Assembly (NCBI RefSeq): GCF_018390695.1
Contig: NZ_JAHBGF010000013.1
Location: forward strand, 62,001 to 126,000
From: Ancylobacter sonchi
GTDB lineage: Bacteria; Pseudomonadota; Alphaproteobacteria; Rhizobiales; Xanthobacteraceae
Direction of reading: 5' to 3'
DNA length: 64,000 bases
Within the stretch, counting starts at the first letter, position 1. Every line of letters starts with the position of its first letter. Positions 1 through 10,009 of this stretch are shown here, piece after piece. The notes below the pieces were generated by a model. The model made no database searches. It was given only the letters and a program-made list of their open reading frames with translations, and had not been told where the DNA came from. The translations under genes were made by a program, and so were the position numbers.

Positions 1-67
1 CCGTCGCGCCGCGCAGGATGTTCTCGCTGTTTGCGCCAAGGAAACTCTGCCGCTCAAGCCGGGTCAT
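1..67 (-). CDS. E1/ThiF-like ubiquitin-activating enzyme, N-terminal fragment (runs off left edge)
   Basis: An ATG at 67 overlaps the stop of the JAB gene as ATGA. It opens a frame reading MTRLERQSFLGANSENILRG and then alanine and threonine before the window ends. The stretch with RQSFLG..SE.IL resembles the start of bacterial ThiF/HesA/MoeB-type E1 enzymes, which have this segment just before the nucleotide-binding glycine-rich loop. In the family, E1 adenylates the C-terminal glycine of a ubiquitin-like protein. Here it would be the fourth gene of the ubiquitin-like operon. Only 22 residues are visible, so the identification rests on this short stretch, the overlapping start and the operon context. 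Confidence 0.62.
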   Translation of the reverse strand, partial: MTRLERQSFLGANSENILRGAT

Positions 68-567
68 GCTGCGCTCCACATGCTGGTCGGTGCGCCGATC
101 GCATTGAATGTCGCGATGAAGGGACGCGGTCTGTCCCTGCCAAGCCAGACCTGTCCGAACGCGGCGGTATCGCTAAGAACAATGGCGCCATGCACCGCGA
201 ACGGCGCCACAGATACGAAATTGGGGATGAACTTCGCATTCTCGCGGTTGTCGACAGAGCTGAAACTGGGAATGCCGCGACCACCGTGTGTGTGGACGTG
301 GAACATGGCGGCGCGGCTGTTCATCGCCCATTGGCGGGCGCGGCGTATTGCCGACGCATCAATCATCGCGCCGACGTGCGGATCGTCGAGGTAATCCCCG
401 TCGTCGACCGGGCGATAGTCGCGCGCCAGGATCAGCAACTCGTCGTGGGCGGCGGCCAAACCCGCCGCGACAAAGCCGATGCGCTCGTGCGCGATCGCAT
501 GCCGGCGTCGAAGGTCGCTGCGTATCGCGTCAAGGAGCCGCTGGGTGATCTTGAACCGGATTCTCAT
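64..567 (-). CDS. JAB/JAMM-type metallopeptidase (Mov34/MPN/PAD-1-like, Prok-JAB)
   Basis: A 167-residue protein. Near residues 92-106 it carries HTHGGRGIPSFSSVD, which gives the JAMM zinc pattern H-x-H followed by S-x2-D; Glu28 (in HERIGFV) is a candidate catalytic acid. The spacer after H-x-H is eight residues rather than the usual seven, so activity should be checked. Known JAMM proteins of ubiquitin-like operons trim the ubiquitin-like C-terminus or remove conjugates, and the neighbouring ubiquitin-like protein here has two residues after its Gly-Gly. The start at 567 is preferred over an upstream ATG at 606 because it forms an ATGA overlap with the preceding gene; the next gene is joined the same way. 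Confidence 0.85.
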   Translation of the reverse strand: MRIRFKITQRLLDAIRSDLRRRHAIAHERIGFVAAGLAAAHDELLILARDYRPVDDGDYLDDPHVGAMIDASAIRRARQWAMNSRAAMFHVHTHGGRGIPSFSSVDNRENAKFIPNFVSVAPFAVHGAIVLSDTAAFGQVWLGRDRPRPFIATFNAIGAPTSMWSAA

Positions 568-896
568 GCCACGGCCCTCAGGTGGGCGGAGAGCATCTGT
601 GTCCACTTCAATGTAGCGGGCACATCATTCCAGGATGGCGCCCACCATGGGCGCTCAATCACACGATGCTGGTTCCAATTGGCGCCCCGCCCGGCGATCT
701 GCTGGGCGAAGAAGAGGCGGGTGACATAACCGGAGTGGAAAAACGGAACGAGGAGAAGGTCCATGCGCTGCGGCTCGCCGCCCGCCAGGAAGGCAAAGGC
801 GGGCAACAAGGCGACATGCTGGCCGCCCTCCTTGAGGAGGACGGCGCTGCCATGCATCGCCTGCAAGCCGGCGAATTCCTGCGACGGGTCGCTCAC
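564..896 (-). CDS. E2/UBC-like protein (prokaryotic E2 family E type), no cysteine
   Basis: A 110-residue protein with a Trp/His-rich C-terminal half (ANWNQHRVIERPWWAPSWND) of the kind seen in the divergent bacterial E2 family encoded beside multi-ubiquitin genes (Prok-E2_E, from memory). A true E2 carries ubiquitin as a thioester on cysteine. Reading the whole translation I find no cysteine at all, so this protein cannot work by the classical mechanism. It may be a scaffold, use another nucleophile, or use His chemistry; these are inferences. It overlaps both neighbours by ATGA, so the operon order is ubiquitin-like protein, E2-like, JAB, E1. Confidence 0.75.
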   Translation of the reverse strand: MSDPSQEFAGLQAMHGSAVLLKEGGQHVALLPAFAFLAGGEPQRMDLLLVPFFHSGYVTRLFFAQQIAGRGANWNQHRVIERPWWAPSWNDVPATLKWTQMLSAHLRAVA

Positions 897-1603
897 GACG
901 AACCCCCGCAGGGTACCTGCTGGAAGAACTTCATCCCCTCCTTGATGCGGAGCTTGCCGTCCGGCCCCAGGGGAGTCAGCTGGCCCTCGTCATTGAGGTA
1001 CTCCAGAATGTAGCCGGCGTGGACGCCGAACAGGCTAACCAGCTGCTCGGTCGAGTACTTGCCGCGAGGGATCTCGCGCGGATCGTTCTCGAAGTAGACG
1101 GTGATCAGACGCTTCTCGGTGTGCAGATGCTCCGTGCCGTCCGGCGTGAGGTTGATCACCCCATCGCGCGGCAGCTCGATCTCATCGCCGTCGCGCTCAA
1201 GGACCACGACCTCGTCCCGACCCACATGCCCGGATTCGCGCAGCTCCTGCACCAGCGCCTTGCCGACGCCCCATTCGAATCCGTAGCCGTTGAGCGTAAA
1301 GCGGAAGATGCGATCGCTCTTGAATGCGCGGAAGGCCTCCGTGCCCGCGAGCGCCAGGTCGACGGTCTCGTCGAGACCGATGGAACGCGACCCACGGCGG
1401 GTGAAAAGGATCAACACATGGTCGCCAATCGGATCGAAGCCGGCCTTCTCGAGGATGCGCCCGCCAGTCGGCTCAGGCTTGGCAAACTTCACAGCCACAC
1501 CGTTCACGGTCGTGGCGAACGAGCCGTCAGCATCAGGGTGACGGGCAGCCGGTCCAATGAGGCTGCTGGGACCGGATTCCTCCGGGAGGGCGATATGGTT
1601 CAT
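893..1603 (-). CDS. Multi-ubiquitin domain protein (three tandem ubiquitin-like repeats)
   Basis: A 236-residue protein. After a roughly 30-residue N-terminal tail it has three beta-grasp-like repeats at about residues 31-94, 99-160 and 166-233. Each follows the same plan: a hydrophobic strand pair, a helix, strands such as HVLILF, EVVVLER and YILEYLN, and an acidic Gly-rich end. The C-terminus is PCGGSS, so Gly233-Gly234 would be exposed only after removal of two serines, plausibly by the JAB protein. Known relatives (Multiubiquitin family) occur with E1, E2-like and JAB genes in bacteria. It is the first gene of the operon, with a divergent promoter shared with the XRE regulator. A role in phage defence is inferred by analogy with bacterial ubiquitin-like (Bil-type) systems. 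Confidence 0.85.
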   Translation of the reverse strand: MNHIALPEESGPSSLIGPAARHPDADGSFATTVNGVAVKFAKPEPTGGRILEKAGFDPIGDHVLILFTRRGSRSIGLDETVDLALAGTEAFRAFKSDRIFRFTLNGYGFEWGVGKALVQELRESGHVGRDEVVVLERDGDEIELPRDGVINLTPDGTEHLHTEKRLITVYFENDPREIPRGKYSTEQLVSLFGVHAGYILEYLNDEGQLTPLGPDGKLRIKEGMKFFQQVPCGGSS

Positions 1604-1653
1604 GGTTCAACTCTTAGCGTGATGCTCCCGGCCCAATGCCAAAGCGTGACGCT

Positions 1654-1727
1654 AATGTGATGCGGCATGCAAAGAATGTCAAGCACATCGCGAGCATGCT
1701 TGACATATCAAGCGACCCGGCTTAAAT
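1654..1727. promoter_or_regulatory. Divergent promoter pair with a shared inverted-repeat operator
   Basis: A perfect 9-bp inverted repeat, ATGTCAAGC (1676-1684) and GCTTGACAT (1698-1706), has a 13-bp spacer. The right arm contains a rightward -35 TTGACA (1700-1705) with a -10-like TTAAAT 16 bp further (1722-1727), serving the XRE gene. The left arm contains a leftward -35 TTGACA (1677-1682, reverse strand) with a weak -10 CACATT (1654-1659) 17 bp away, serving the ubiquitin-like operon. The right arm also sits in a small palindrome CTTGACATATCAAG (1699-1712). A dimeric XRE protein bound here would block both promoters. A further imperfect repeat TTAGCGT/ACGCTAA spans 1614-1655. Confidence 0.6.
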
Positions 1728-1761
1728 TCACATTTTGAATCAAGGACTTCAGGAGGACTTT

Positions 1762-2160
1762 ATGCCGAGCAGCGGCGCAGGGCCGGAGAGCAGGCTCACG
1801 CTGGGGAGGTATCTCGCTTCAATACGCACCGACCGCGGTCTCTCACAGCGTGACGTTGAAAAAGCCACAGATAAGGTGGTTTCCAACGCCTACCTCAGCC
1901 AAATCGAGAACGACCAGATCAAGAAACCCAGCCCGAACATACTGCACGCGCTCGCGGAACTCTACGCGGTAAGCTACGAGAATCTGATGGAGCGCGCGGG
2001 CTTTGTTGTTCCCACCCGCAGTCGGAGCGGCGACGACCAGCGCCATGGTCGGCTGCCGACATTCGCCGATCACAACCTCACCGCCGAGGAAGAGGCGGAG
2101 CTGATCAAGTATCTCGGGTATCTACGCAGCGTTAGGAAGAAGCCGGGTGGTCAAGACTGA
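1762..2160 (+). CDS. XRE-family HTH transcriptional regulator
   Basis: A 132-residue protein with an N-terminal XRE helix-turn-helix (LGRYLASIRTDRGLSQRDVE, then ISNAYLSQIE-like recognition helix VVSNAYLSQIEND and KPSPNILHALAELY). The C-terminal part is acidic and charged (LTAEEEAELIKYLGYLRSVRKK). I chose the ATG at 1762 because AGGAGG lies at 1751-1756, five bases upstream; an earlier ATG at 1735 has no such site. It overlaps the ImmA/IrrE gene by 14 bp. An XRE repressor paired with an IrrE-type protease is a recognised arrangement in which the protease cleaves or removes the repressor (DdrO-PprI/IrrE and ImmR-ImmA). Here it would control both divergent operons. Confidence 0.85.
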   Translation: MPSSGAGPESRLTLGRYLASIRTDRGLSQRDVEKATDKVVSNAYLSQIENDQIKKPSPNILHALAELYAVSYENLMERAGFVVPTRSRSGDDQRHGRLPTFADHNLTAEEEAELIKYLGYLRSVRKKPGGQD

Positions 2161-3058
2161 CGACAGTTCCATCGACCCAGAGCAGCAGCGCGCCGTGCAT
2201 GATGCAGCTCGGCGCGCTCTCGACCGAGCATCCGCGTGGGGTGTCTTTCCAACGCCCGTCGCCGATATCCTGACGGCCGCGAAGCTGCGCGTCGCGCCGA
2301 CGAGCGCGTTCGATCCGCGCCGCATCGTCACCTATCTCGCCGACAAAGCCGAACGGTCCGCCTCGGTGTTGAAATCCGCGATCGAGAAGGTGCTCGGCAT
2401 TTACGATGCCGGCGAGAGCATCATCCATATCGACGATTCGGTTCATCGGTCCAAGCAGACATTTCTCAAACTCCATGAGGCAGGGCATCACGAGATGCCC
2501 ACGCATAGGAAGATCTTTCGCTTTTTCCAGGATTGCGAGAAACACCTCGACCCCGACATTGCTGACGCGTTCGAGCGCGAAGCTAACAACTTTGCCCGGT
2601 TCGTCCTCTTCCAGGGCAACGCGTTTCGCGATGTCGCGGCAGATCATCCGCTCGAGATCAAATCGATCCTAAAAATCGCGCCCGACTTCGGGGCGTCGAT
2701 CTATGCATCGAGCCGTGAGTACGCCCGGACCCACCGGCGAGCCTGCGCGGTGTATATCCTGGAGCCGGTCACCTTTTGTGAAAGGACCGGGGCGCGAGCG
2801 GAGGTTCGCCGCATCGAAGTCTCTGCGGAGTATGCGCGGCAGTTCGGCCAGCCGACGGAGACGGCCATAACACTCAACCATTCACTCGGCAAAGTGCTGC
2901 CCATCGGACGCAAAATGATACGGGCAACGCCCGTCTCGGTCACCGATCGCAACGGGCATGCCCATGCGTGTCTTGCGGAGGCCTTCGATACCACCTTTAA
3001 TATCATCGTCTTGGTCTACCCGATCCGGGAGCTTGGCTCGAAATTGAAGCCAAGCTGA
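2147..3058 (+). CDS. ImmA/IrrE-family metallopeptidase
   Basis: A 303-residue protein with the zinc-peptidase motif HEAGH at residues 110-114 and a following FEREANNFARFVLF segment in which Glu145 is a candidate third ligand. That layout is typical of the ImmA/IrrE (DUF955) family. Members cleave partner XRE repressors in response to DNA damage or phage signals. The GTG start at 2147 overlaps the XRE gene and suggests translational coupling. The roughly 140 residues after the zinc motif form a second domain that I do not recognise and which may sense the signal. The protease role on the adjacent XRE protein is inferred from family and gene pairing. Confidence 0.83.
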   Translation: MVKTDDSSIDPEQQRAVHDAARRALDRASAWGVFPTPVADILTAAKLRVAPTSAFDPRRIVTYLADKAERSASVLKSAIEKVLGIYDAGESIIHIDDSVHRSKQTFLKLHEAGHHEMPTHRKIFRFFQDCEKHLDPDIADAFEREANNFARFVLFQGNAFRDVAADHPLEIKSILKIAPDFGASIYASSREYARTHRRACAVYILEPVTFCERTGARAEVRRIEVSAEYARQFGQPTETAITLNHSLGKVLPIGRKMIRATPVSVTDRNGHAHACLAEAFDTTFNIIVLVYPIRELGSKLKPS

Positions 3059-3097
3059 TCGGCTCGTCGGGACCATGTCGTCGCAGGGTGGGGGGCA

Positions 3098-4438
3098 ATG
3101 GTGTGGGAAGAGCGCCGTGAGGTATGGCGGCAACGATCGTTCGATGCGCGCACGTCCGGCGACGTTGACTACGCCCGCGTCATCCATTCCGCTTCGTTTC
3201 GCCGCCTCCAGGGCAAGACTCAGATCCTGAATCTGGGCGACAGCGACTTTTACCGGACACGTCTGACCCACTCGCTTGAGGTTGCGCAGATCGCGGTCGG
3301 GCTGACGATCCAGCTCCGGCATAATCGGCCCGATCACGATGCCACCAAGTACCTGCCCGAGCGCAGCATGATGCAGGCGATTGCATGCACACACGATCTT
3401 GGACATCCGCCCTTTGGCCATGGCGGCGAGGTCGCGCTGAACTACTGCATGCGCGATGCCGGCGGCTTCGAGGGCAATGGGCAAACCCTGCGCATCCTCT
3501 CAAAGCTCGAGAAGATGTCCAAAGCAGCTGGCTCCAATCTCACGCGCGAGACGATGCTCGGCGTGCTGAAATACCCAGTCGCGTACACAGCGGCGACAAA
3601 CGACAGCCGCAAGCCGAAACTGCTTACCGACACCAGTGGCACGCCAATCCTCGACCGCAAGGCGTCGAAGCCGCCCAAATGCTATATGGATTGCGAACAG
3701 GATGTCGTTGACTGGATGCTTAAACCGTTGGCCGGGAGCGATCGCGAGGAGTTCCAGGCATTCAACGAAGTGCCCGGAAAGCACCAAGAGGCCCGGCATA
3801 AATCATTCGCGTGCAGCCTGATGGATCTCGCGGATGACATCAGTTTCGGAATCCACGACCTCGAAGACGTTCTCGCAATGGGGCTCATCTCGCGTGCTGA
3901 CTTTGAGAAGCACGTAACGCCAGAGCACTGCACAGCGCTATTGACTTACCTCAACACGGAATATCCCGGCCAGTACGGCAACGACGTCTACACCGGCTTC
4001 GCTGACCGGCTTTTCGGCGACGGAAGCGAGCGGAAGCATCAGATTAATCGTGTACTCAACATGGTGATCCCCGCCGTCGATATTCAGATGAAGGAGGAAT
4101 TCAAGGAGTCGCGGATAAAGTATCAGGCGATACTGCCAGCGCCCGTCATGGAATTCGTGCTGGCGATCAAAAATCTTGTGCGGGAGGAAGTCGTTTACAG
4201 CCCGAGCGTTCAGCACCTCGAATTCAAGGGCCAGATGATGGTCATCGCCGTCTTCGAGGTGTTGCGTTCCGAGCCGGAGAAGTTTCTGCCTGCCGATGTG
4301 TTCGCACGGTTCAAGAATGCCGCTGATCCATTGCGCCTCATCTGCGACTACGTGGCCGGCATGACGGATGGGTATCTGCTGCGGACCTATGACCGCCTGT
4401 TCAGCCCGCGCATGGGCTCGGTATTCGACAAGCTTTAG
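3098..4438 (+). CDS. dGTPase-like dNTP triphosphohydrolase (HD domain)
   Basis: A 446-residue protein with the dGTPase plan: FRRLQGKTQI near residues 35-43, RTRLTHSLEVAQ with His58, the HD dyad at 99-100 in CTHDLGHPPFGHGGE, and a later SLMDLADDISFGIHDLED segment supplying the last metal-binding aspartate. These enzymes hydrolyse dGTP and other dNTPs to the nucleoside and triphosphate. Bacterial homologues can starve phages of dNTPs. The gene follows the metallopeptidase by 39 bp on the same strand. That position, beside a ubiquitin-like operon and under an XRE/IrrE pair, argues for a defence role rather than housekeeping, but this is inference. Confidence 0.87.
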   Translation: MVWEERREVWRQRSFDARTSGDVDYARVIHSASFRRLQGKTQILNLGDSDFYRTRLTHSLEVAQIAVGLTIQLRHNRPDHDATKYLPERSMMQAIACTHDLGHPPFGHGGEVALNYCMRDAGGFEGNGQTLRILSKLEKMSKAAGSNLTRETMLGVLKYPVAYTAATNDSRKPKLLTDTSGTPILDRKASKPPKCYMDCEQDVVDWMLKPLAGSDREEFQAFNEVPGKHQEARHKSFACSLMDLADDISFGIHDLEDVLAMGLISRADFEKHVTPEHCTALLTYLNTEYPGQYGNDVYTGFADRLFGDGSERKHQINRVLNMVIPAVDIQMKEEFKESRIKYQAILPAPVMEFVLAIKNLVREEVVYSPSVQHLEFKGQMMVIAVFEVLRSEPEKFLPADVFARFKNAADPLRLICDYVAGMTDGYLLRTYDRLFSPRMGSVFDKL

Positions 4439-4690: not shown

Positions 4691-5344
4691 CTATTGAGCA
4701 ACAATCCTCAACGCATTCAATGTTTCCGGCGTAATTGTTCCCGTCGGTTTTAGTCCGTAATCTGCCTGCAAGCGCGTTAGTGCGTCACGGGTCTGCGGAC
4801 CGACCTTGCCGTCAACAGGACCGCTAAAATATCCGAAGGCAACCATTGCGGTCTGAACCTGGCGCACGATAGCCGCAAACTTGTCGGTGTTTCCAGGAAG
4901 CGGGACCGGTCCGGTGCGCGTTGGCGGAACAGGGTTTGGTCCAATCTCCACAGGCGCGGACAGAGCCGGTGCCGGCGTCGTCGCGTAGCTTCCTGTTGCT
5001 GGCGAACCGCTGATGGTGGGGGCCGGTGCGGCCGGTCGTGTTGGTACAACTGGCGGCGGCGCATAGAGGGGCGTCGCGTAGGAGGGTGAGGGGCTATAGC
5101 TCGGACTATAGTAGCTGCCGCCAGTCGAGGAGCGGTGGCTCGTGTGGCTGCTATGGCTTCGATGCGAGCTATGACTGCGATGTCCGGCCAACGTATAAAT
5201 GTGGTCGAGTTTGAAGATGTCGAAGAGCGATTTGCTCTTCTGGGGGTCAAAGCCTGGCGGCGCGCTGAGCGGAAGGGCCAGGCCTTTTGACGGGAGAAGG
5301 CCAGCCGCGAGCAGCGAGGGAATGGCAAAAAGCCTGCGTTTCAT
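4691..5344 (-). CDS. hxsA: His-Xaa-Ser repeat protein HxsA, probable modified target
   Basis: A 217-residue protein. The first 24 residues (MKRRLFAIPSLLAAGLLPSK and following) look like a signal peptide. Residues 55-72 are six consecutive His-Xaa-Ser triplets, followed by a Ser/Tyr/Pro-rich linker (about 73-150). A peptidoglycan-binding-like domain occupies about 155-215 (VQTAMVAFGYFSGPVDGKVG, then TRDALTRLQADYGL). Family knowledge: HxsA is the presumed substrate of the HxsB/HxsC radical SAM enzymes. The domain order suggests a modified His/Ser-rich segment tethered to the cell wall. I chose the start at 5344 because it overlaps the hxsC stop as ATGA and gives the signal peptide. The chemistry and purpose of the modification are unknown. 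Confidence 0.88.
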   Translation of the reverse strand: MKRRLFAIPSLLAAGLLPSKGLALPLSAPPGFDPQKSKSLFDIFKLDHIYTLAGHRSHSSHRSHSSHTSHRSSTGGSYYSPSYSPSPSYATPLYAPPPVVPTRPAAPAPTISGSPATGSYATTPAPALSAPVEIGPNPVPPTRTGPVPLPGNTDKFAAIVRQVQTAMVAFGYFSGPVDGKVGPQTRDALTRLQADYGLKPTGTITPETLNALRIVAQ

Positions 5345-6444
5345 ATGCGAGCGAGCCTCTGGAAGCCTCGATCCTCTGGATACCACTCAAAGAACCCACC
5401 GCAAATGTCCCGCTCCTGGCAGCCGCTGCACTCCCCCAGATAGCGTCGTTTCCAGTCTGAGATCGTCGACGGCGCGCGATCGCGATAAGGCTGTGGGACC
5501 GTGCAGCGAGGAAAGTTGAAGAGTACGGCTTCGACGTTTCGCGCTTTTGCGATATTCAGGGCATCTGCAATCGGCGTGAACTCGGTCGAATGGTCGAAGA
5601 AAAGCCGGTCCCAATTCTGCCGGCCGAAGCCGATGCTCTCCAGCTGCATGAGAGCCCAGCGGTTGATGAACGGCAAATGCATGATCACGAAGCTGGCGAG
5701 GCGCGCAAGTAAGGCAGCGTTCTCGCGCATGATGACCGTACGCAGTTCGATCGATGCACCGGCACGGGCGAAGATGGGAAGGGTCTCCATCAGCTGGAGG
5801 AAAGCACCCGACTTGCCGACGATGCGATCGTGCGTGGCGGCGTCGGCCGCATAAAGCGGAATGCCCCACAGCACGCGGTCGCGCATGCCAACCAGAGGAT
5901 CCAGATCGTCTTCGTCGATATGCTGGGCGTTGCTCAGTACGTGAAATCCGAGGTCCGGTCTGTGCGTGAGGACCCTCTGCATCATCGGCAGGAGCGCCGC
6001 CTTATAGAGCAGCGGCTCTCCCCCTGAGATGCCGATTGTCATGCCGGCGGGCGCGAGCAGCGCCGCCGCCTCGAAGAACGGCAGCAAATCCGCGTGATGA
6101 TGCTTCGGTGGCTGAGAGCACATCAAGCATAGCTGGTCGCAGCGCTCGGTGATCAAAAACGTGTTGTGGGGTGATGTTGCCCGGATCAGTCGCTGGGCAG
6201 CCCGTCCGCCAGGCAACGCCAGCACTACGTCGCCGTCAACCTCTTCGGCGGTCGTACCTTCGATGACGAGTGTGCCCCGGGGGCTCGCATAGGTCAGACG
6301 CTGACCCGCCACCTCAACCAGGTCTCCATCAAATTCCGTACGCAGGCCCGTTCTATCGAGTTCGTATGCCCGCACCTCGGCGTTAAGCCGCATGACGAAG
6401 GGTTCAGGCTGTGACGATCGAGCTGCGAACCTGAGCGGAATCAT
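5341..6444 (-). CDS. hxsC: His-Xaa-Ser system radical SAM maturase HxsC
   Basis: A 367-residue radical SAM protein. The iron-sulfur motif C-x3-C-x2-C is CDQLCLMC at residues 102-109, followed by the SAM-binding GISGGEPLL. The C-terminal end has further cysteines (GECSGCQERDICGGF) suggesting an auxiliary cluster. It lies between hxsB and hxsA with four-base ATGA overlaps on both sides. The likely role is a radical-based modification of HxsA's His-Xaa-Ser repeats; family membership is clear but the reaction is not known. The N-terminal roughly 90 residues are not part of the radical SAM core and may bind the substrate. Confidence 0.87.
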   Translation of the reverse strand: MIPLRFAARSSQPEPFVMRLNAEVRAYELDRTGLRTEFDGDLVEVAGQRLTYASPRGTLVIEGTTAEEVDGDVVLALPGGRAAQRLIRATSPHNTFLITERCDQLCLMCSQPPKHHHADLLPFFEAAALLAPAGMTIGISGGEPLLYKAALLPMMQRVLTHRPDLGFHVLSNAQHIDEDDLDPLVGMRDRVLWGIPLYAADAATHDRIVGKSGAFLQLMETLPIFARAGASIELRTVIMRENAALLARLASFVIMHLPFINRWALMQLESIGFGRQNWDRLFFDHSTEFTPIADALNIAKARNVEAVLFNFPRCTVPQPYRDRAPSTISDWKRRYLGECSGCQERDICGGFFEWYPEDRGFQRLARI

Positions 6445-7850
6445 TGGTGCTCTCGCACGAGATGTTCGGGCCAGCTCTCCAGGTCCGCCCAGCGGCTCAG
6501 AGAGAAGCGCGTCGCCTCATCACGGCGATACAAGAGCTCGAAAACCTTATCGAACAGGCTTGTGTGGCGGCGGCAAAACCATGTCGCTTGCTTGGGGAGG
6601 TCAATGCGGCCGTATCGCGAAATGTCGTCGACCAGATCAGAGCCGCAGAACGGCTGATAGGGACAATGGATGCAGTCCGGGTCGAAATTGTTGCACGAGG
6701 CCGCGTTGAGCGTAGCTACCTTCTCGGTGTCGATGCCATGGTGGACATGGCCGACTGACAGATCGATCCGACCGATGCGCGACTGCATGCGGGCCTCATC
6801 CGTTGGATACAGCACGCCATCGTGGTCAATGACGAGGTAGTCCGACGCGAAGAAATTGGGGTTGCGCAGATCGACATGCTCGTCGGCGCCAGCGCGCAGC
6901 ACACGCTTGAGACACTGACTGAAATAATACTCCTCAAGGATAGTGCCTGTACGGAAGTTCCGCTCGATCAGATGCTCGATGAAGGCCGCATGCCAGGCAT
7001 TCCAGCGATCAAGACCCACATCAGGGTCCCTGCCGCGACGGGCAAAGCCTTGATGATTGATCGGACGGAGATAAATCGATCGCAAGCCGCGGTCCACGAA
7101 ACTGCTGATGATTTCGTCGACCGCAGGCGGGCGTTCAATGTCGATGGTTGGCAGAGCCGAGACCTTGCTCGAACCGAACTGCTCGATGGCTCGGTCAAGG
7201 TTGCCAAAGAATGCATTAGTAAGCTCGGTTGACCGGGTACGTTGGCGCTGGTGCGTCACTGCATCGCCGTCGAGCGAAGTGCTGATGAAGGTATCCGGTG
7301 CCGCCAAATAGTCCCACGCCTCCGCGCTCACCGCTTGCAAGTTCGTGCACACGACGAACTCGGCTTTGCCGAACCGTTGGCGGCAAAAATCCCGCACGCG
7401 CTCAAGGAGGTCGAGGCGTAGTAGCGGCTCACCTCCCTGGAATTCGATCTTGATTTCCGGGGCTGCCAGTCCCCCGATAAAGGCCAGCACGGCGTCGAGG
7501 GTGTCTTCGGTCCAGTCGAAGCCACGCGCACCTTCGGGCGCCCGCGACACTTGGCAATAGCTGCAGGTCAGATTGCAACGAAGCGTCGGGACGAGGATTA
7601 CATATCCCAGTTGGCGGCGGGGTGCCTGGCGCGCGCACCAGCGATAGGCGAAACCGAGATAAGAGAGATCGAGTTCTCGCTGAAAGGTATGGCCGCCTTC
7701 GTGGAGAAACGCTTGGTCCTCGTCGGTCAGGGCATTAAGGGCATAGCGATCCAGAAAGTCTTCGGTTCCCTTGAAGAATCCCCCGGCGTCATCAGCGAAA
7801 AGGAGCGAGCCGCGGCCGAGGTCGCGAAAGCGAAGCGGCCAGATGTTCAC
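6441..7850 (-). CDS. hxsB: His-Xaa-Ser system radical SAM maturase HxsB (SPASM type)
   Basis: A 469-residue radical SAM protein with the cluster motif CNLTCSYC after LVPTLR, the SAM-binding FQGGEPLLR, and a SPASM-like C-terminal cysteine set (CNNFDPDCIHCPYQPFCGSD and a later WFCRRHTS). SPASM proteins often modify ribosomally made peptides, which fits a maturase acting on HxsA. The start overlaps the hxsD stop as ATGA. Two different radical SAM enzymes for one small repeat protein imply two modification steps or two cooperating enzymes; that is inference. Confidence 0.88.
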   Translation of the reverse strand: MNIWPLRFRDLGRGSLLFADDAGGFFKGTEDFLDRYALNALTDEDQAFLHEGGHTFQRELDLSYLGFAYRWCARQAPRRQLGYVILVPTLRCNLTCSYCQVSRAPEGARGFDWTEDTLDAVLAFIGGLAAPEIKIEFQGGEPLLRLDLLERVRDFCRQRFGKAEFVVCTNLQAVSAEAWDYLAAPDTFISTSLDGDAVTHQRQRTRSTELTNAFFGNLDRAIEQFGSSKVSALPTIDIERPPAVDEIISSFVDRGLRSIYLRPINHQGFARRGRDPDVGLDRWNAWHAAFIEHLIERNFRTGTILEEYYFSQCLKRVLRAGADEHVDLRNPNFFASDYLVIDHDGVLYPTDEARMQSRIGRIDLSVGHVHHGIDTEKVATLNAASCNNFDPDCIHCPYQPFCGSDLVDDISRYGRIDLPKQATWFCRRHTSLFDKVFELLYRRDEATRFSLSRWADLESWPEHLVREHQ

Positions 7851-8083
7851 CTGAGCACCCGATTCAGCAATTCCTCGCGCAGGGGCAACGTTTCGGTATA
7901 GATTTTTTCGCGATAGACTGCGTGCAGCACGGTAGATCGAAGATTTTCCGGAACTAGACAGCCCGCGTTCGTCTGAATGCCACCTTGCGTTCGTTCAAAA
8001 AGGATTTCGGGAAACTGACCCTGCAGTCTAATTAGCGCGGCATCGACGAAGCCGGCTAGCGACGATGGAATATCGATTTGCAT
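7847..8083 (-). CDS. hxsD: His-Xaa-Ser system protein HxsD
   Basis: A 78-residue protein, first gene of the hxsD-B-C-A operon, overlapping hxsB by ATGA. HxsD is a small protein of unknown biochemical role found only with the other three genes. It has no signal peptide and is probably cytoplasmic; it could be a chaperone or recognition factor for the maturases (inference). The identification rests on size, position and the presence of the other three system genes. Confidence 0.75.
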   Translation of the reverse strand: MQIDIPSSLAGFVDAALIRLQGQFPEILFERTQGGIQTNAGCLVPENLRSTVLHAVYREKIYTETLPLREELLNRVLR

Positions 8084-8482
8084 GACGGCGCGCGCACCAA
8101 GTGACTGATATCAGCCGCGTCGATATAGAGGCGGCTTCCGACGGATCGCAGTTTACAACCCCTACGATAATCAGCCAGTCGTTATTTCGATTTTCGAAAC
8201 GCCGAGCCACGATGTCAACCGGTTGATCACCGCTTGCTCGCCCGATCCGCTGAGGCAAGCTGGTGCCAATTGCCGACGCGTCGCGCTATCGGGCCCGTTA
8301 TGGCGATGCCGGAGGTCTGGTTTCGGTCGGACCGCCAACGTCGGCTCTCTGGCGCAACAATGACCTCCAGAGCCTTAAACGAAACGTCTGCTTTCGGGAA
8401 ATCGCAAGTCCGATCTCTACGGCCGAGATGGCGGCGCAAAGCGGACGTCGCTGAAAGGGCAGTCGAGGGTCAGCAAAGGGTC
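8084..8482. other. Intergenic region upstream of hxsD with an inverted repeat
   Basis: I see no convincing gene here. It must contain the hxsD promoter, but no strong -35/-10 pair stands out. An imperfect inverted repeat, ACGTCTGCTTT (8384-8394) and AAAGCGGACGT (8438-8448), bounds a 65-bp segment that looks like a small non-autonomous repeat; related GTCCGCTTT-type sequence is found at about 51780. The right end abuts the IS1182-like element. Confidence 0.4.
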
Positions 8483-10009
8483 GATTGTGTTGAAGAAGTC
8501 GGAGTTGCTGGCGGCCTGAAGTCCTGATTCACTCCTCGCGGGTCAGGAGGCTGAACTGATGATGGGCGAGCGGACGGTCTCGCAGGAGGCGTTGTTCTAC
8601 GAGTTCAGCCTGGAGCGGCATGTCCCCGGCCACCACCTGCTACGCGCAATAGACCGCTTCGTCGATCTGTCCGGCATCCGAGCGCATTTGCGGCCCTTCT
8701 ACAGCGAGACCGGTCGGCCCTCGATCGATCCCGAACTGATGATCCGGATGCTGGTCGTCGGCTACTGCTTCGGCATCCGCTCTGAGCGCAGGCTCTGCGA
8801 CGAGGTCCATCTGAACCTTGCCTACCGGTGGTTTTGCCGGCTCGGGCTTGAGGGCGATGTGCCCGACCATTCCACCTTCTCGAAGAACCGGCACGGCCGT
8901 TTCCGCGACAGCGATCTGCTGCGCGAGGTGTTCGAGACGACGGTTCAGCGCTGCATGGCGGAGGGCCTGGTCGGTGGCGAGGGCTTCGCGGTCGATGCCA
9001 GCCTGATCAAGGCCGACGCCAACCGCCAACGTGGCGCGCCGGGCCGTGACGGGTTGCCACCCGAGGCCACGAACCAGGCCGTGCGCGAGTATCTGGCCGT
9101 GCTGGACGATGCCGCGTTCGGCGCGGCGACGCCGGTCGTGCCAAAGTTCATCTCGCCGGCAGATCCCGCCGCGCGCTGGACCGCCGCCCATGGCGGGCAG
9201 GCCTTCTTCGCCTATGCGACGAACTATCTGATCGACCTGAAGCATGCCGTCATCATGGATGTGGAGGCGACGACAGCTGTGCGGCAGGCCGAAGTGACCG
9301 CTGCCCGCACGATGATCGATCGCACGCAGGACCGGTTGGGCACCTGGCCCGAGAAGCTGGTGGCGGATGCCGGTTACGGCTCGGCCGAGAACCTCGCCTG
9401 GCTGGTGCATGAGCGTGGGATCGAGCCGCATATCCCGGTGTTCGACAAGTCCCAGCGCAGTGACGGCACCTTCAGTCGGTCCGACTTCACCTATGATCAC
9501 AAGCGCGATCTCTACACCTGCCCGGGCGGCAAGGAGCTCCGGCAGTTCCGCCGCCAGTTCGAGGTGCCGCGCGACGGCGTCGATAGCGAAGGCCTCATGC
9601 GCTACCGGGCGAGCAAGCTCGACTGCGATTCCTGTTCGTTGAAGCCGCAATGCTGTCCGAAGGCGCCAGCCCGCAAGCTCCTGCGCTCCATCCATGAAGG
9701 CGCCCGCGACATGGCGCGCGACATCGCGGACACCGATGCCTATGTCACCTCAAGGCGCGAACGGAAGAAGGTCGAGATGCTGTTCGCGCACCTGAAGCGC
9801 ATCCTGAAGCTCGATCGCTTGCGGCTGCGAGGGCCATGCGGTGCCCGCGATGAGTTCCTCCTCGCCGCCACCGCCCAAAACCTCCGGAAAATGGCAAAGC
9901 TCATGCCGATCGGACCGCAAGCCCAGCCCACGTGACGAGGGGCGACCCCGTTTTGTAGCTCTCGGCGCCGACCGCAGCCCGCTCTAATGCCGACTTCTTC
10001 AACGCAATC
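8483..10009 (+). mobile_element. IS1182-family insertion sequence, complete (copy 1)
   Basis: The element is bounded by near-perfect 20-bp terminal inverted repeats, GATTGTGTTGAAGAAGTCGG at 8483-8502 and the reverse complement GATTGCGTTGAAGAAGTCGG at 9990-10009 (one mismatch). It contains a single intact transposase gene. No obvious target duplication is seen. Copy 2 at 38378 and a remnant at 19670 share the same ends. Confidence 0.85.
8559..9935 (+). CDS. IS1182-family DDE transposase
   Basis: A 458-residue transposase beginning MMGERTVSQEALFYEFSLER. It has the N-terminal domain typical of IS1182/IS5-group enzymes (YCFGIRSERRLCDEVHLNLAY and DHSTFSKNRHGRF), a central DDE core (first Asp in FAVDASLIKADAN, second in ADAGYGSAENLAW), a cysteine-rich insert (CDSCSLKPQCCP) and a C-terminal KKVEMLFAHLKRILKLDRLR holding the final Glu. 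It is full length and without internal stops, so it is probably active. It closely resembles the transposase at 38456. Confidence 0.92.
   Translation: MMGERTVSQEALFYEFSLERHVPGHHLLRAIDRFVDLSGIRAHLRPFYSETGRPSIDPELMIRMLVVGYCFGIRSERRLCDEVHLNLAYRWFCRLGLEGDVPDHSTFSKNRHGRFRDSDLLREVFETTVQRCMAEGLVGGEGFAVDASLIKADANRQRGAPGRDGLPPEATNQAVREYLAVLDDAAFGAATPVVPKFISPADPAARWTAAHGGQAFFAYATNYLIDLKHAVIMDVEATTAVRQAEVTAARTMIDRTQDRLGTWPEKLVADAGYGSAENLAWLVHERGIEPHIPVFDKSQRSDGTFSRSDFTYDHKRDLYTCPGGKELRQFRRQFEVPRDGVDSEGLMRYRASKLDCDSCSLKPQCCPKAPARKLLRSIHEGARDMARDIADTDAYVTSRRERKKVEMLFAHLKRILKLDRLRLRGPCGARDEFLLAATAQNLRKMAKLMPIGPQAQPT

Follow-up and report, generated by a model that had tools for sequence, protein, structure and literature searches.

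We analysed a 64,000 nt stretch of the Ancylobacter sonchi genome (contig NZ_JAHBGF010000013.1, positions 62,001 to 126,000; hereafter, the window), at the start of which lies an operon for a bacterial ubiquitin-like (Ubl) conjugation cascade. The operon encodes a triple Ubl protein (mUbl, a polyUbl protein), an E2-like protein, a JAMM/JAB peptidase and a ThiF-family E1, and it diverges from genes for an XRE repressor, an IrrE/ImmA-type metallopeptidase and an anti-phage-type dGTPase (Table 1). The E1 gene runs past the window edge; on the host contig, read here as locus L002 (window position equals L002 position minus 14000), it is followed by IetA and IetS, an AAA ATPase and a subtilase, and further on by a serine recombinase. 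The IetA-IetS pair (IetAS), although outside the window, is the most constant extra partner of the Ubl operon.

Successive Ubl genes are joined by stop/start overlaps, GTGA between mUbl and the E2-like gene and ATGA at both the E2-like/JAMM and JAMM/E1 junctions. For the XRE gene, the ATG at 1762, with AGGAGG upstream, is a better start than the TTG at 1735. The IrrE gene overlaps it by 14 bp and has the HExxH motif (HEAGH) at residue 110, and the dGTPase gene begins 39 bp past IrrE. Between E1 and IetA there is a gap of 175 bp (L002 12993-13167). The first-pass annotation, made from the letters of the window, had described a fully overlapping Ubl operon with a triple Ubl gene and a cysteine-less E2-like gene at or near these coordinates, and that description holds.

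Table 1. Features of the Ubl locus; positions are those of the window unless marked L002.
Feature	Position	Strand	Remarks
E1 (ThiF-family) start	1..79	-	ATG at 67, or GTG at 79; Pfam ThiF 2.2e-27
E1 whole gene	L002 13168-14079, beyond window edge	-	303 aa
IetA	L002 11865-12992, outside window, after E1	-	PADLOC IetA 3.5e-77
IetS	L002 9631-11856, outside window, after IetA	-	PADLOC IetS 8e-37
Serine recombinase	L002 7258-8922, outside window		further on past IetS
JAMM/JAB peptidase	64..567	-	167 aa; alternative GTG start 606
E2-like (UBC-fold) protein	564..896	-	110 aa, zero Cys
mUbl, triple Ubl protein (polyUbl)	893..1603	-	236 aa, C-terminus VPCGGSS; Pfam Multi_ubiq 1.1e-18
Shared operator (predicted)	1676..1706	.	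perfect 9-bp inverted repeat ATGTCAAGC-13-GCTTGACAT, both -35 hexamers inside
Promoter-like site of XRE operon	1700..1728	+	TTGACA-17-TAAATT, consensus scan
XRE repressor (CapH-like)	1762..2160	+	132 aa; Pfam HTH_31 4.2e-11; PADLOC HTH_VI 1.5e-8, capH 9.6e-5
IrrE/ImmA-type metallopeptidase (CapP-like)	2147..3058	+	303 aa; Pfam Peptidase_M78 1.3e-6; PADLOC capP 2.2e-13
Anti-phage-type dGTPase	3098..4438	+	446 aa; NF041026 528 bits (cut-off 400); PADLOC dGTPase 1.5e-137

Relatives of the E2-like protein were found in 10 loci of the genome_contigs set, in 11 of 391 genomes of the host's family (its own included), in 3 of 394 genomes of another family and in 9 plasmid records. Profile surveys of the order (397 genomes) and the phylum (398 genomes) gave the host's own genome as the sole match, which suggests that the E2-like family is rare. 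Of seven stretches in viral_contigs that fit a pattern, none was confirmed as a relative, and a viral home was rejected. Duplicate contigs (L033, L036, L038), L046, which is near-identical to L026, and short copies (L013-L023, L030-L032) were dropped before counting, and the plasmid hits H5 and H7 were left out of the reading of E2-like loci. We define clade A as the loci whose E2-like protein is at least 69% identical to that of the window, which gives 14 loci including the window's own.

In all 14 clade-A loci, mUbl, E2, JAMM, E1, IetA and IetS occur in fixed position and orientation, the IetA and IetS genes being 8 bp apart (window locus) or overlapping. The divergent XRE-IrrE pair is present in all 13 loci with that side sequenced, window included, and the full order XRE-IrrE / mUbl-E2-JAMM-E1-IetA-IetS is found in 13/13 loci sequenced on both sides; the fourteenth, L005, has IetAS and ends before XRE. 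Beyond IrrE and beyond IetS the genes vary from locus to locus (by eye), so these two points look like the borders of the module. One clade-A locus (L009) is in a metagenome-assembled genome of Terriglobia (Acidobacteriota), a placement that may reflect transfer or mis-binning. Pairwise distances of the eight proteins are correlated over 13 loci (r 0.55-0.88, with at most 1 in 2000 permutations as high per pair; r 0.57-0.78 without the window, for the six pairs checked) in a test that entered the longer open piece of IrrE for L004 and included no housekeeping control. This shows shared history, not function. Among the intermediate loci, L012 has XRE-IrrE and lacks IetAS, L011 shows an XRE and then the contig end, and L010 has a different XRE-ImmA pair. 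In clade B we observed XRE-ImmA-exonuclease in five loci (L026, L027, L039, L044, L045) and Xre-RES in two (L028, L040), and PD-(D/E)XK and UvrD genes lie after E1 in L026 and L044.

Starting the survey from IetA avoids any selection for Ubl genes when the linkage is tested. In the 391 genomes of the host's family (window included), all 12 listed places with an IetA at least 58% identical to the window's adjoin an E1 operon. Seven of them are clade A, and the five others (L077-L081) lie beside an E1 operon and an ImmA gene, the E1 operons being two BilABCD, two DUF6791-ThiF + DUF6527, and one Bub-type JAB-ThiF/DUF6527. Taken together, the close IetA genes adjoin four kinds of E1 operon, which include Bil and Bub-type ones. 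For L077-L080 the E1s have independent confirmation (Pfam/PADLOC), and the E1 of L081 is from the profile scan alone. Among the distant IetA genes, taken as the next 24 listed minus two second places in genomes already used and one 158-residue fragment (51%), 2/21 (L082 and L092) have an E1 within ~10 kb. No E1 operon was found beside 20 AAA controls with long open reading frames, which were taken from the low end of that listing and are presumed to be FtsH. With the query omitted, the comparison of 11/11 close with 2/21 distant genes gives a Fisher p of 6e-7, relatedness ignored. IetA homologues are also found in 19 plasmid records, and five of the six that are at least 56% identical lie beside an mUbl-E1 operon. 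In an IetA tree the clade-A genes form one group (87/92), with poor resolution elsewhere; all five rows marked 'none' in it were later found beside E1, so how many times the pairing arose does not follow from this tree.

We noted that BilABCD diverges from XRE-ImmA-IetA-IetS in L079 and L081 (by profile scan, and for L079 by PADLOC too, with BilD at 465 bits). In these two loci a Bil system is apparently coupled to a peptidase-controlled IetAS operon.

Over the 14 clade-A loci the gap between E1 and IetA is 129-194 bp, and before IetA there is a conserved palindrome, GTGGACGA...TCGTCCAC, distinct from the XRE operator. Related palindromes precede other close IetA genes (by eye). The C-terminus of IetA is conserved and helix-turn-helix-like (by eye), making it a candidate binder of this palindrome.

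The perfect 9-bp inverted repeat between XRE and mUbl has arms at 1676-1684 and 1698-1706, which contain TGTCAA (1677-1682) and TTGACA (1700-1705). We aligned the intergenic DNA (153-168 bp) of 15 related loci, namely 13 of clade A plus L012 and L011, and the repeat is its most conserved block, with a conservation of 0.93 in the operator arms versus 0.65 for DNA outside 1660-1712. In the window its centre is the top dyad of the 254 centres tested, with 10/13 pairs; when all 15 intergenic sequences are shuffled base by base and the results pooled, the best dyad has at least 10 pairs in 2.1% of cases. The site is present in 15/15 loci, and its centre ranks first among the dyads of 13 of them; in L024 and L011 it ranks second, the operator there being weaker, with three mismatches. 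In L012 both arms are changed together (TTTGTCAAGCAC/GTGCTTGACAAA), that is, they covary. The half-sites TCAAGCA and GCTTGA also lie between XRE and mUbl in six further XRE-IrrE loci (L084-L089, by eye), although by the automatic dyad score the half-site palindrome is not top-ranked in all six. Several loci also have another dyad, offset from the first, which may point to a third half-site. A consensus promoter scan found the rightward promoter only and no leftward one; the window has a weak leftward -10, and several relatives have a TATCTT-like one (by eye). One repressor site shared by both operons, which the first-pass annotation had proposed from this repeat and its two -35 boxes, is well supported by these sequence comparisons.

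The XRE and IrrE matches to capH and capP support the view that the pair is a CapH/CapP-type peptidase switch, and the protease-triggered switch suggested earlier would fit this type. IrrE relatives occur in 15 plasmid records, 12 of which cover >80% of the query. The ten inspected here are L024, L025, L084-L089, L130 and L136 (H17, a further record of the same strain, and H21, Deinococcus, were left aside), and in 10/10 an mUbl-ThiF operon lies divergently to IrrE. The IrrE of L130 falls into two reading frames, and for L136, which is without annotation, XRE was outside the check. The lower-coverage records from Mycolicibacterium (H22) and a Sinorhizobium fragment (H23) were left out.

Turning to the cascade proteins, Multi_ubiq (Pfam) matches mUbl in two stretches and the predicted model has strand/helix elements in three successive segments, which supports three Ubl domains; in Foldseek the model matches the multi-ubiquitin protein 9cd2 (7e-17). 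The tail P-x-G-x-S-S is found in 25/25 extracted mUbl (27 loci; no mUbl was found in two), and its conservation fits a JAMM peptidase that would trim the last residues and expose the glycine. The JAMM zinc motif E..HTH..D is intact (by eye), and the JAMM profile matches the JAB part of BubCD-type proteins with an hhalign probability of 93% (E 2.7e-7). The best Protein Data Bank (PDB) match of E1 by sequence is Citrobacter BubCD (4e-16), while phmmer searches of IrrE and of JAMM against the PDB returned nothing useful.

The E2-like protein has a UBC/RWD-type fold without a catalytic cysteine, as polyUbl type 6e does, and the structure nearest to its model is BubB. No cysteine column is conserved in the E2-like proteins over 27 loci, and the BubB-type E2 relatives lack a conserved cysteine too. 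In E1, only C172, C175 and C255 are kept in 27/27 (C115 in 24/27), and with His257 they look like a zinc site. Given that there is no conserved candidate cysteine in the E2-like protein, or in E1 outside the zinc-type site, a standard thioester relay is improbable, and the transfer route, if any, is probably of another kind. The Bub mechanism reportedly involves a non-standard intermediate.

The first-pass annotation drew all seven genes, dGTPase included, as one compound unit, and its check for homologous operons without the XRE-IrrE-dGTPase set has a split outcome. XRE-IrrE is constant in clade A; the dGTPase is not, being found in 0/12 other clade-A loci read directly on that side, and its absence from them rules it out as a core component. 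Among the nine nearest listed mUbl, four are placed on the same contig as a dGTPase (dGTPases 82-88% identical, mUbl 76-87%); these contigs measure 8797, 157202, 13179 and 33033 nt, exact size and source labels agree, and for two of the four they agree with those of E2-like proteins too. Such contig matching is an indirect sign of a shared contig, not of gene order; as a control, the window's own dGTPase is listed with the host contig's true 143783. None of the other 111 listed mUbl shares a listed dGTPase contig (by eye; best 120 of 286 mUbl and best 120 of 1983 dGTPases). On the Mesorhizobium AR07 plasmid (H24, L083) only a remnant of IrrE is left, ~60 bp before an 88% identical dGTPase. Homologues of the dGTPase occur in 74 plasmid records, 51 of them Escherichia. 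This evidence, which is indirect, points to an optional, lineage-specific addition in the nearest sub-lineage. In clade B, an exonuclease-domain gene after ImmA holds the place that the dGTPase has in the window locus.

Several known systems resemble parts of this locus. Type 6e polyUbl operons as described by Iyer et al. 2006 (PMC1779556) have tandem Ubl domains, two or three of them (the example named as typical, mlr6139 of Mesorhizobium loti, has three), an RWD/UBC-like E2 without the catalytic cysteine, and a JAB and an E1 fused in one multidomain protein, with variants. Tandem Ubl, cysteine-less E2, JAB and E1 are common to both, whereas here JAMM and E1 are two overlapping, unfused genes and XRE-IrrE and IetAS are constant partners. 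The Bub system (Corbett and colleagues; Citrobacter BubA/BubB/BubCD structures) is related through the E1 and JAMM matches to BubCD given above, and differs in that here JAMM and E1 are unfused, IetAS is attached and no DUF6527 was found. Type 6e also includes an additional metal-binding protein, taken here to be DUF6527-like; a profile built from three DUF6527 sequences had matches in 0/14 clade-A loci, and such a protein was found in other mUbl loci. Bil (BilABCD) likewise has Ubl, E2, JAMM and E1 in one operon, and the two loci of the same IetA group mentioned above carry it next to XRE-ImmA-IetAS. We rejected membership in Bil for the window operon, as PADLOC gives no Bil match for mUbl, the E2-like protein or JAMM, and none among the best 25 of 26 matches for E1, while the same models recognise BilABCD in L079.

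With CapH/CapP the locus has in common an XRE, an ImmA/IrrE with HExxH and a divergent operator, and differs in that the inspected plasmid relatives of its IrrE (10 of the 12 records with >80% coverage) are all beside mUbl operons. According to PMC13373217, 219/544 Bub operons are next to CapW or CapH+CapP (pooled), and ssDNA (single-stranded DNA)-activated repressor cleavage by CapP with derepression is reported. Set beside the type 6e row of PMC1779556, this means that, within the compound unit that the first-pass annotation did not know as described, the Ubl operon with a CapH/CapP-type switch is a pairing already described in kind. The AAA ATPase + subtilase gene pair of the IetAS defence system is found here too, with the difference that the window IetA belongs to a close group mostly adjoining Ubl-conjugation operons, and the dGTPase scores above the cut-off of the anti-phage dGTPase model (NF041026) and is placed behind an IrrE gene. 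Links to ATP-dependent proteolysis were called less clear in 2006 (PMC1779556), and the main text of PMC13373217 does not mention IetA, subtilisin or dGTPase. Searches of open-licence PMC texts, a limited body, for IetAS with ubiquitin and for XRE/ImmA with ubiquitin-like found no linkage, and within this literature it is the joining of IetAS with ubiquitin-like conjugation operons that is undescribed.

We predict that the locus encodes a polyUbl conjugation system, of the type-6e/Bub kind and switchable by DNA damage, with IetAS downstream and the dGTPase optional, and we give this reading a probability of about 0.72. XRE would occupy the shared palindrome and shut both promoters by covering their -35 boxes, and, when DNA damage or ssDNA is signalled, IrrE would cleave XRE and free the two operons at the same time. 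JAMM would trim the mUbl tail and could undo conjugates, E1 would adenylate the exposed mUbl end, and the E2-like protein may aid transfer by a non-standard route with no E1/E2 thioester. IetA and IetS, from their own conserved promoter, would belong to this pathway too, their action being most likely directed at modified proteins or controlled by conjugation, possibly with contact between Ubl and IetAS. The dGTPase would be an optional effector behind IrrE in one sub-lineage and hence under the same switch; the whole may have an antiviral function. We also propose, tentatively and at well below even odds, that one branch of IetAS does the degrading for polyUbl, Bub, Bil and DUF6791-ThiF cascades, either breaking down tagged proteins or being unleashed by conjugation, with the tagging arm turned on by repressor cleavage.

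A number of observations weigh against the conjugation system as we read it. The similarity of the E2-like protein to BubB is not significant by sequence profile (hhalign probability 1.4%), and Foldseek alone gives this protein no match at 0.001. IrrE is frameshifted in the clade-A locus L004 (B. murdochi), split over two frames at 7861-8747 with the rest of the module present. Tblastn found no IetAS in the intermediate and clade-B polyUbl loci, some of which have other neighbours, such as an exonuclease or a PD-(D/E)XK/UvrD pair. Distant IetA genes in the family survey are mostly without E1 (19/21), a count in which unlike E1s could be missed, since E1s of the close loci went into the profiles used. 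On plasmids, 0/4 inspected IetA genes (of 13) with <53% identity adjoin an mUbl-E1 operon, and a Paracoccus plasmid has a close IetAS (57.5% identity) without E1. The separate palindrome and the 129-194 bp gap place IetAS outside the XRE regulon as far as sequence goes, and the pair is probably regulated separately. According to PMC13373217, Bub operons are not known to give protection against phage.

Some of these points favour modules that travel together with no joint working, that is, a CapHP-controlled polyUbl operon, IetAS and a dGTPase. IetAS has its own promoter-operator, a close homologue of it is found without E1 on the Paracoccus plasmid, and the plasmid distribution of the dGTPase is independent. 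We consider this account doubtful, as the position and orientation of IetAS are fixed throughout clade A and close IetA genes lie beside E1 operons of four kinds in 12/12 places versus 2/21 for distant ones. Independent of this, the IetAS pair could be a guard or addiction device in which IetA restrains a toxic IetS, and loss of the Ubl operon or an attack on it would lead to cell death or to retention of the element. The ietA/ietS genes were first described as a plasmid-stability pair, homologues of IetA are in the 19 plasmid records, and a helix-turn-helix-like C-terminus with a palindrome before the gene is what self-regulated pairs have; by itself, however, this leaves the preference of close IetA for four kinds of Ubl operon unexplained, and we think it unlikely.

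The cysteine pattern allows another explanation, in which conjugation does not take place: mUbl would serve as a scaffold or form filaments, with adenylation or sulphuration of its tail as the only chemistry, and the E2-like protein would be a binding adaptor. The missing E2 cysteine, the zinc-site-like character of the only fully conserved E1 cysteines and the match of the mUbl model to the multi-ubiquitin filament structures 9d59 and 9d5b all fit, and such E2 domains are called inactive, probable ubiquitin binders in PMC1779556. The conserved tail and intact JAMM motif speak against it. The BubB-type relatives lack the cysteine too, yet the title of a 2026 paper by Ye and colleagues is said to present the Bub pathway as a conjugation pathway, and on balance we regard the absence of conjugation as improbable. 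The compound defence unit of the first-pass annotation, in which Ubl operon, XRE-IrrE and dGTPase would together deplete deoxynucleotides (dNTPs), is very unlikely. In its favour, the dGTPase is probably co-transcribed given its short distance from IrrE, and the shared contigs of 4/9 nearest mUbl (indirect) and the Mesorhizobium remnant fit such a unit; but the 12 other clade-A loci lack it and the 0/111 further mUbl (120 listed on each side, by eye) argue against a wider association.

Bacterial ubiquitin-like conjugation is known in defence, and the question raised here is the fate of the conjugates and whether there is a dedicated protease machine. Because one AAA ATPase-subtilase group is repeatedly found beside conjugation operons of four kinds, this question can be put directly to the test, and the conserved operator is a ready reporter for when such systems turn on. 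If true, the degradative proposal would mean a bacterial tag-and-destroy (ubiquitin-protease) system.

Next to the dGTPase, the window has a His-Xaa-Ser cassette on the minus strand (4691-8083), with HxsA at 162 bits (cut-off 122), HxsC at 287 (268) and HxsB at 394 (370). A small open reading frame at 7847-8083 occupies the place of HxsD and is a candidate by position. Further along, a 458-aa open reading frame (8559-9935, plus strand) resembles a transposase.

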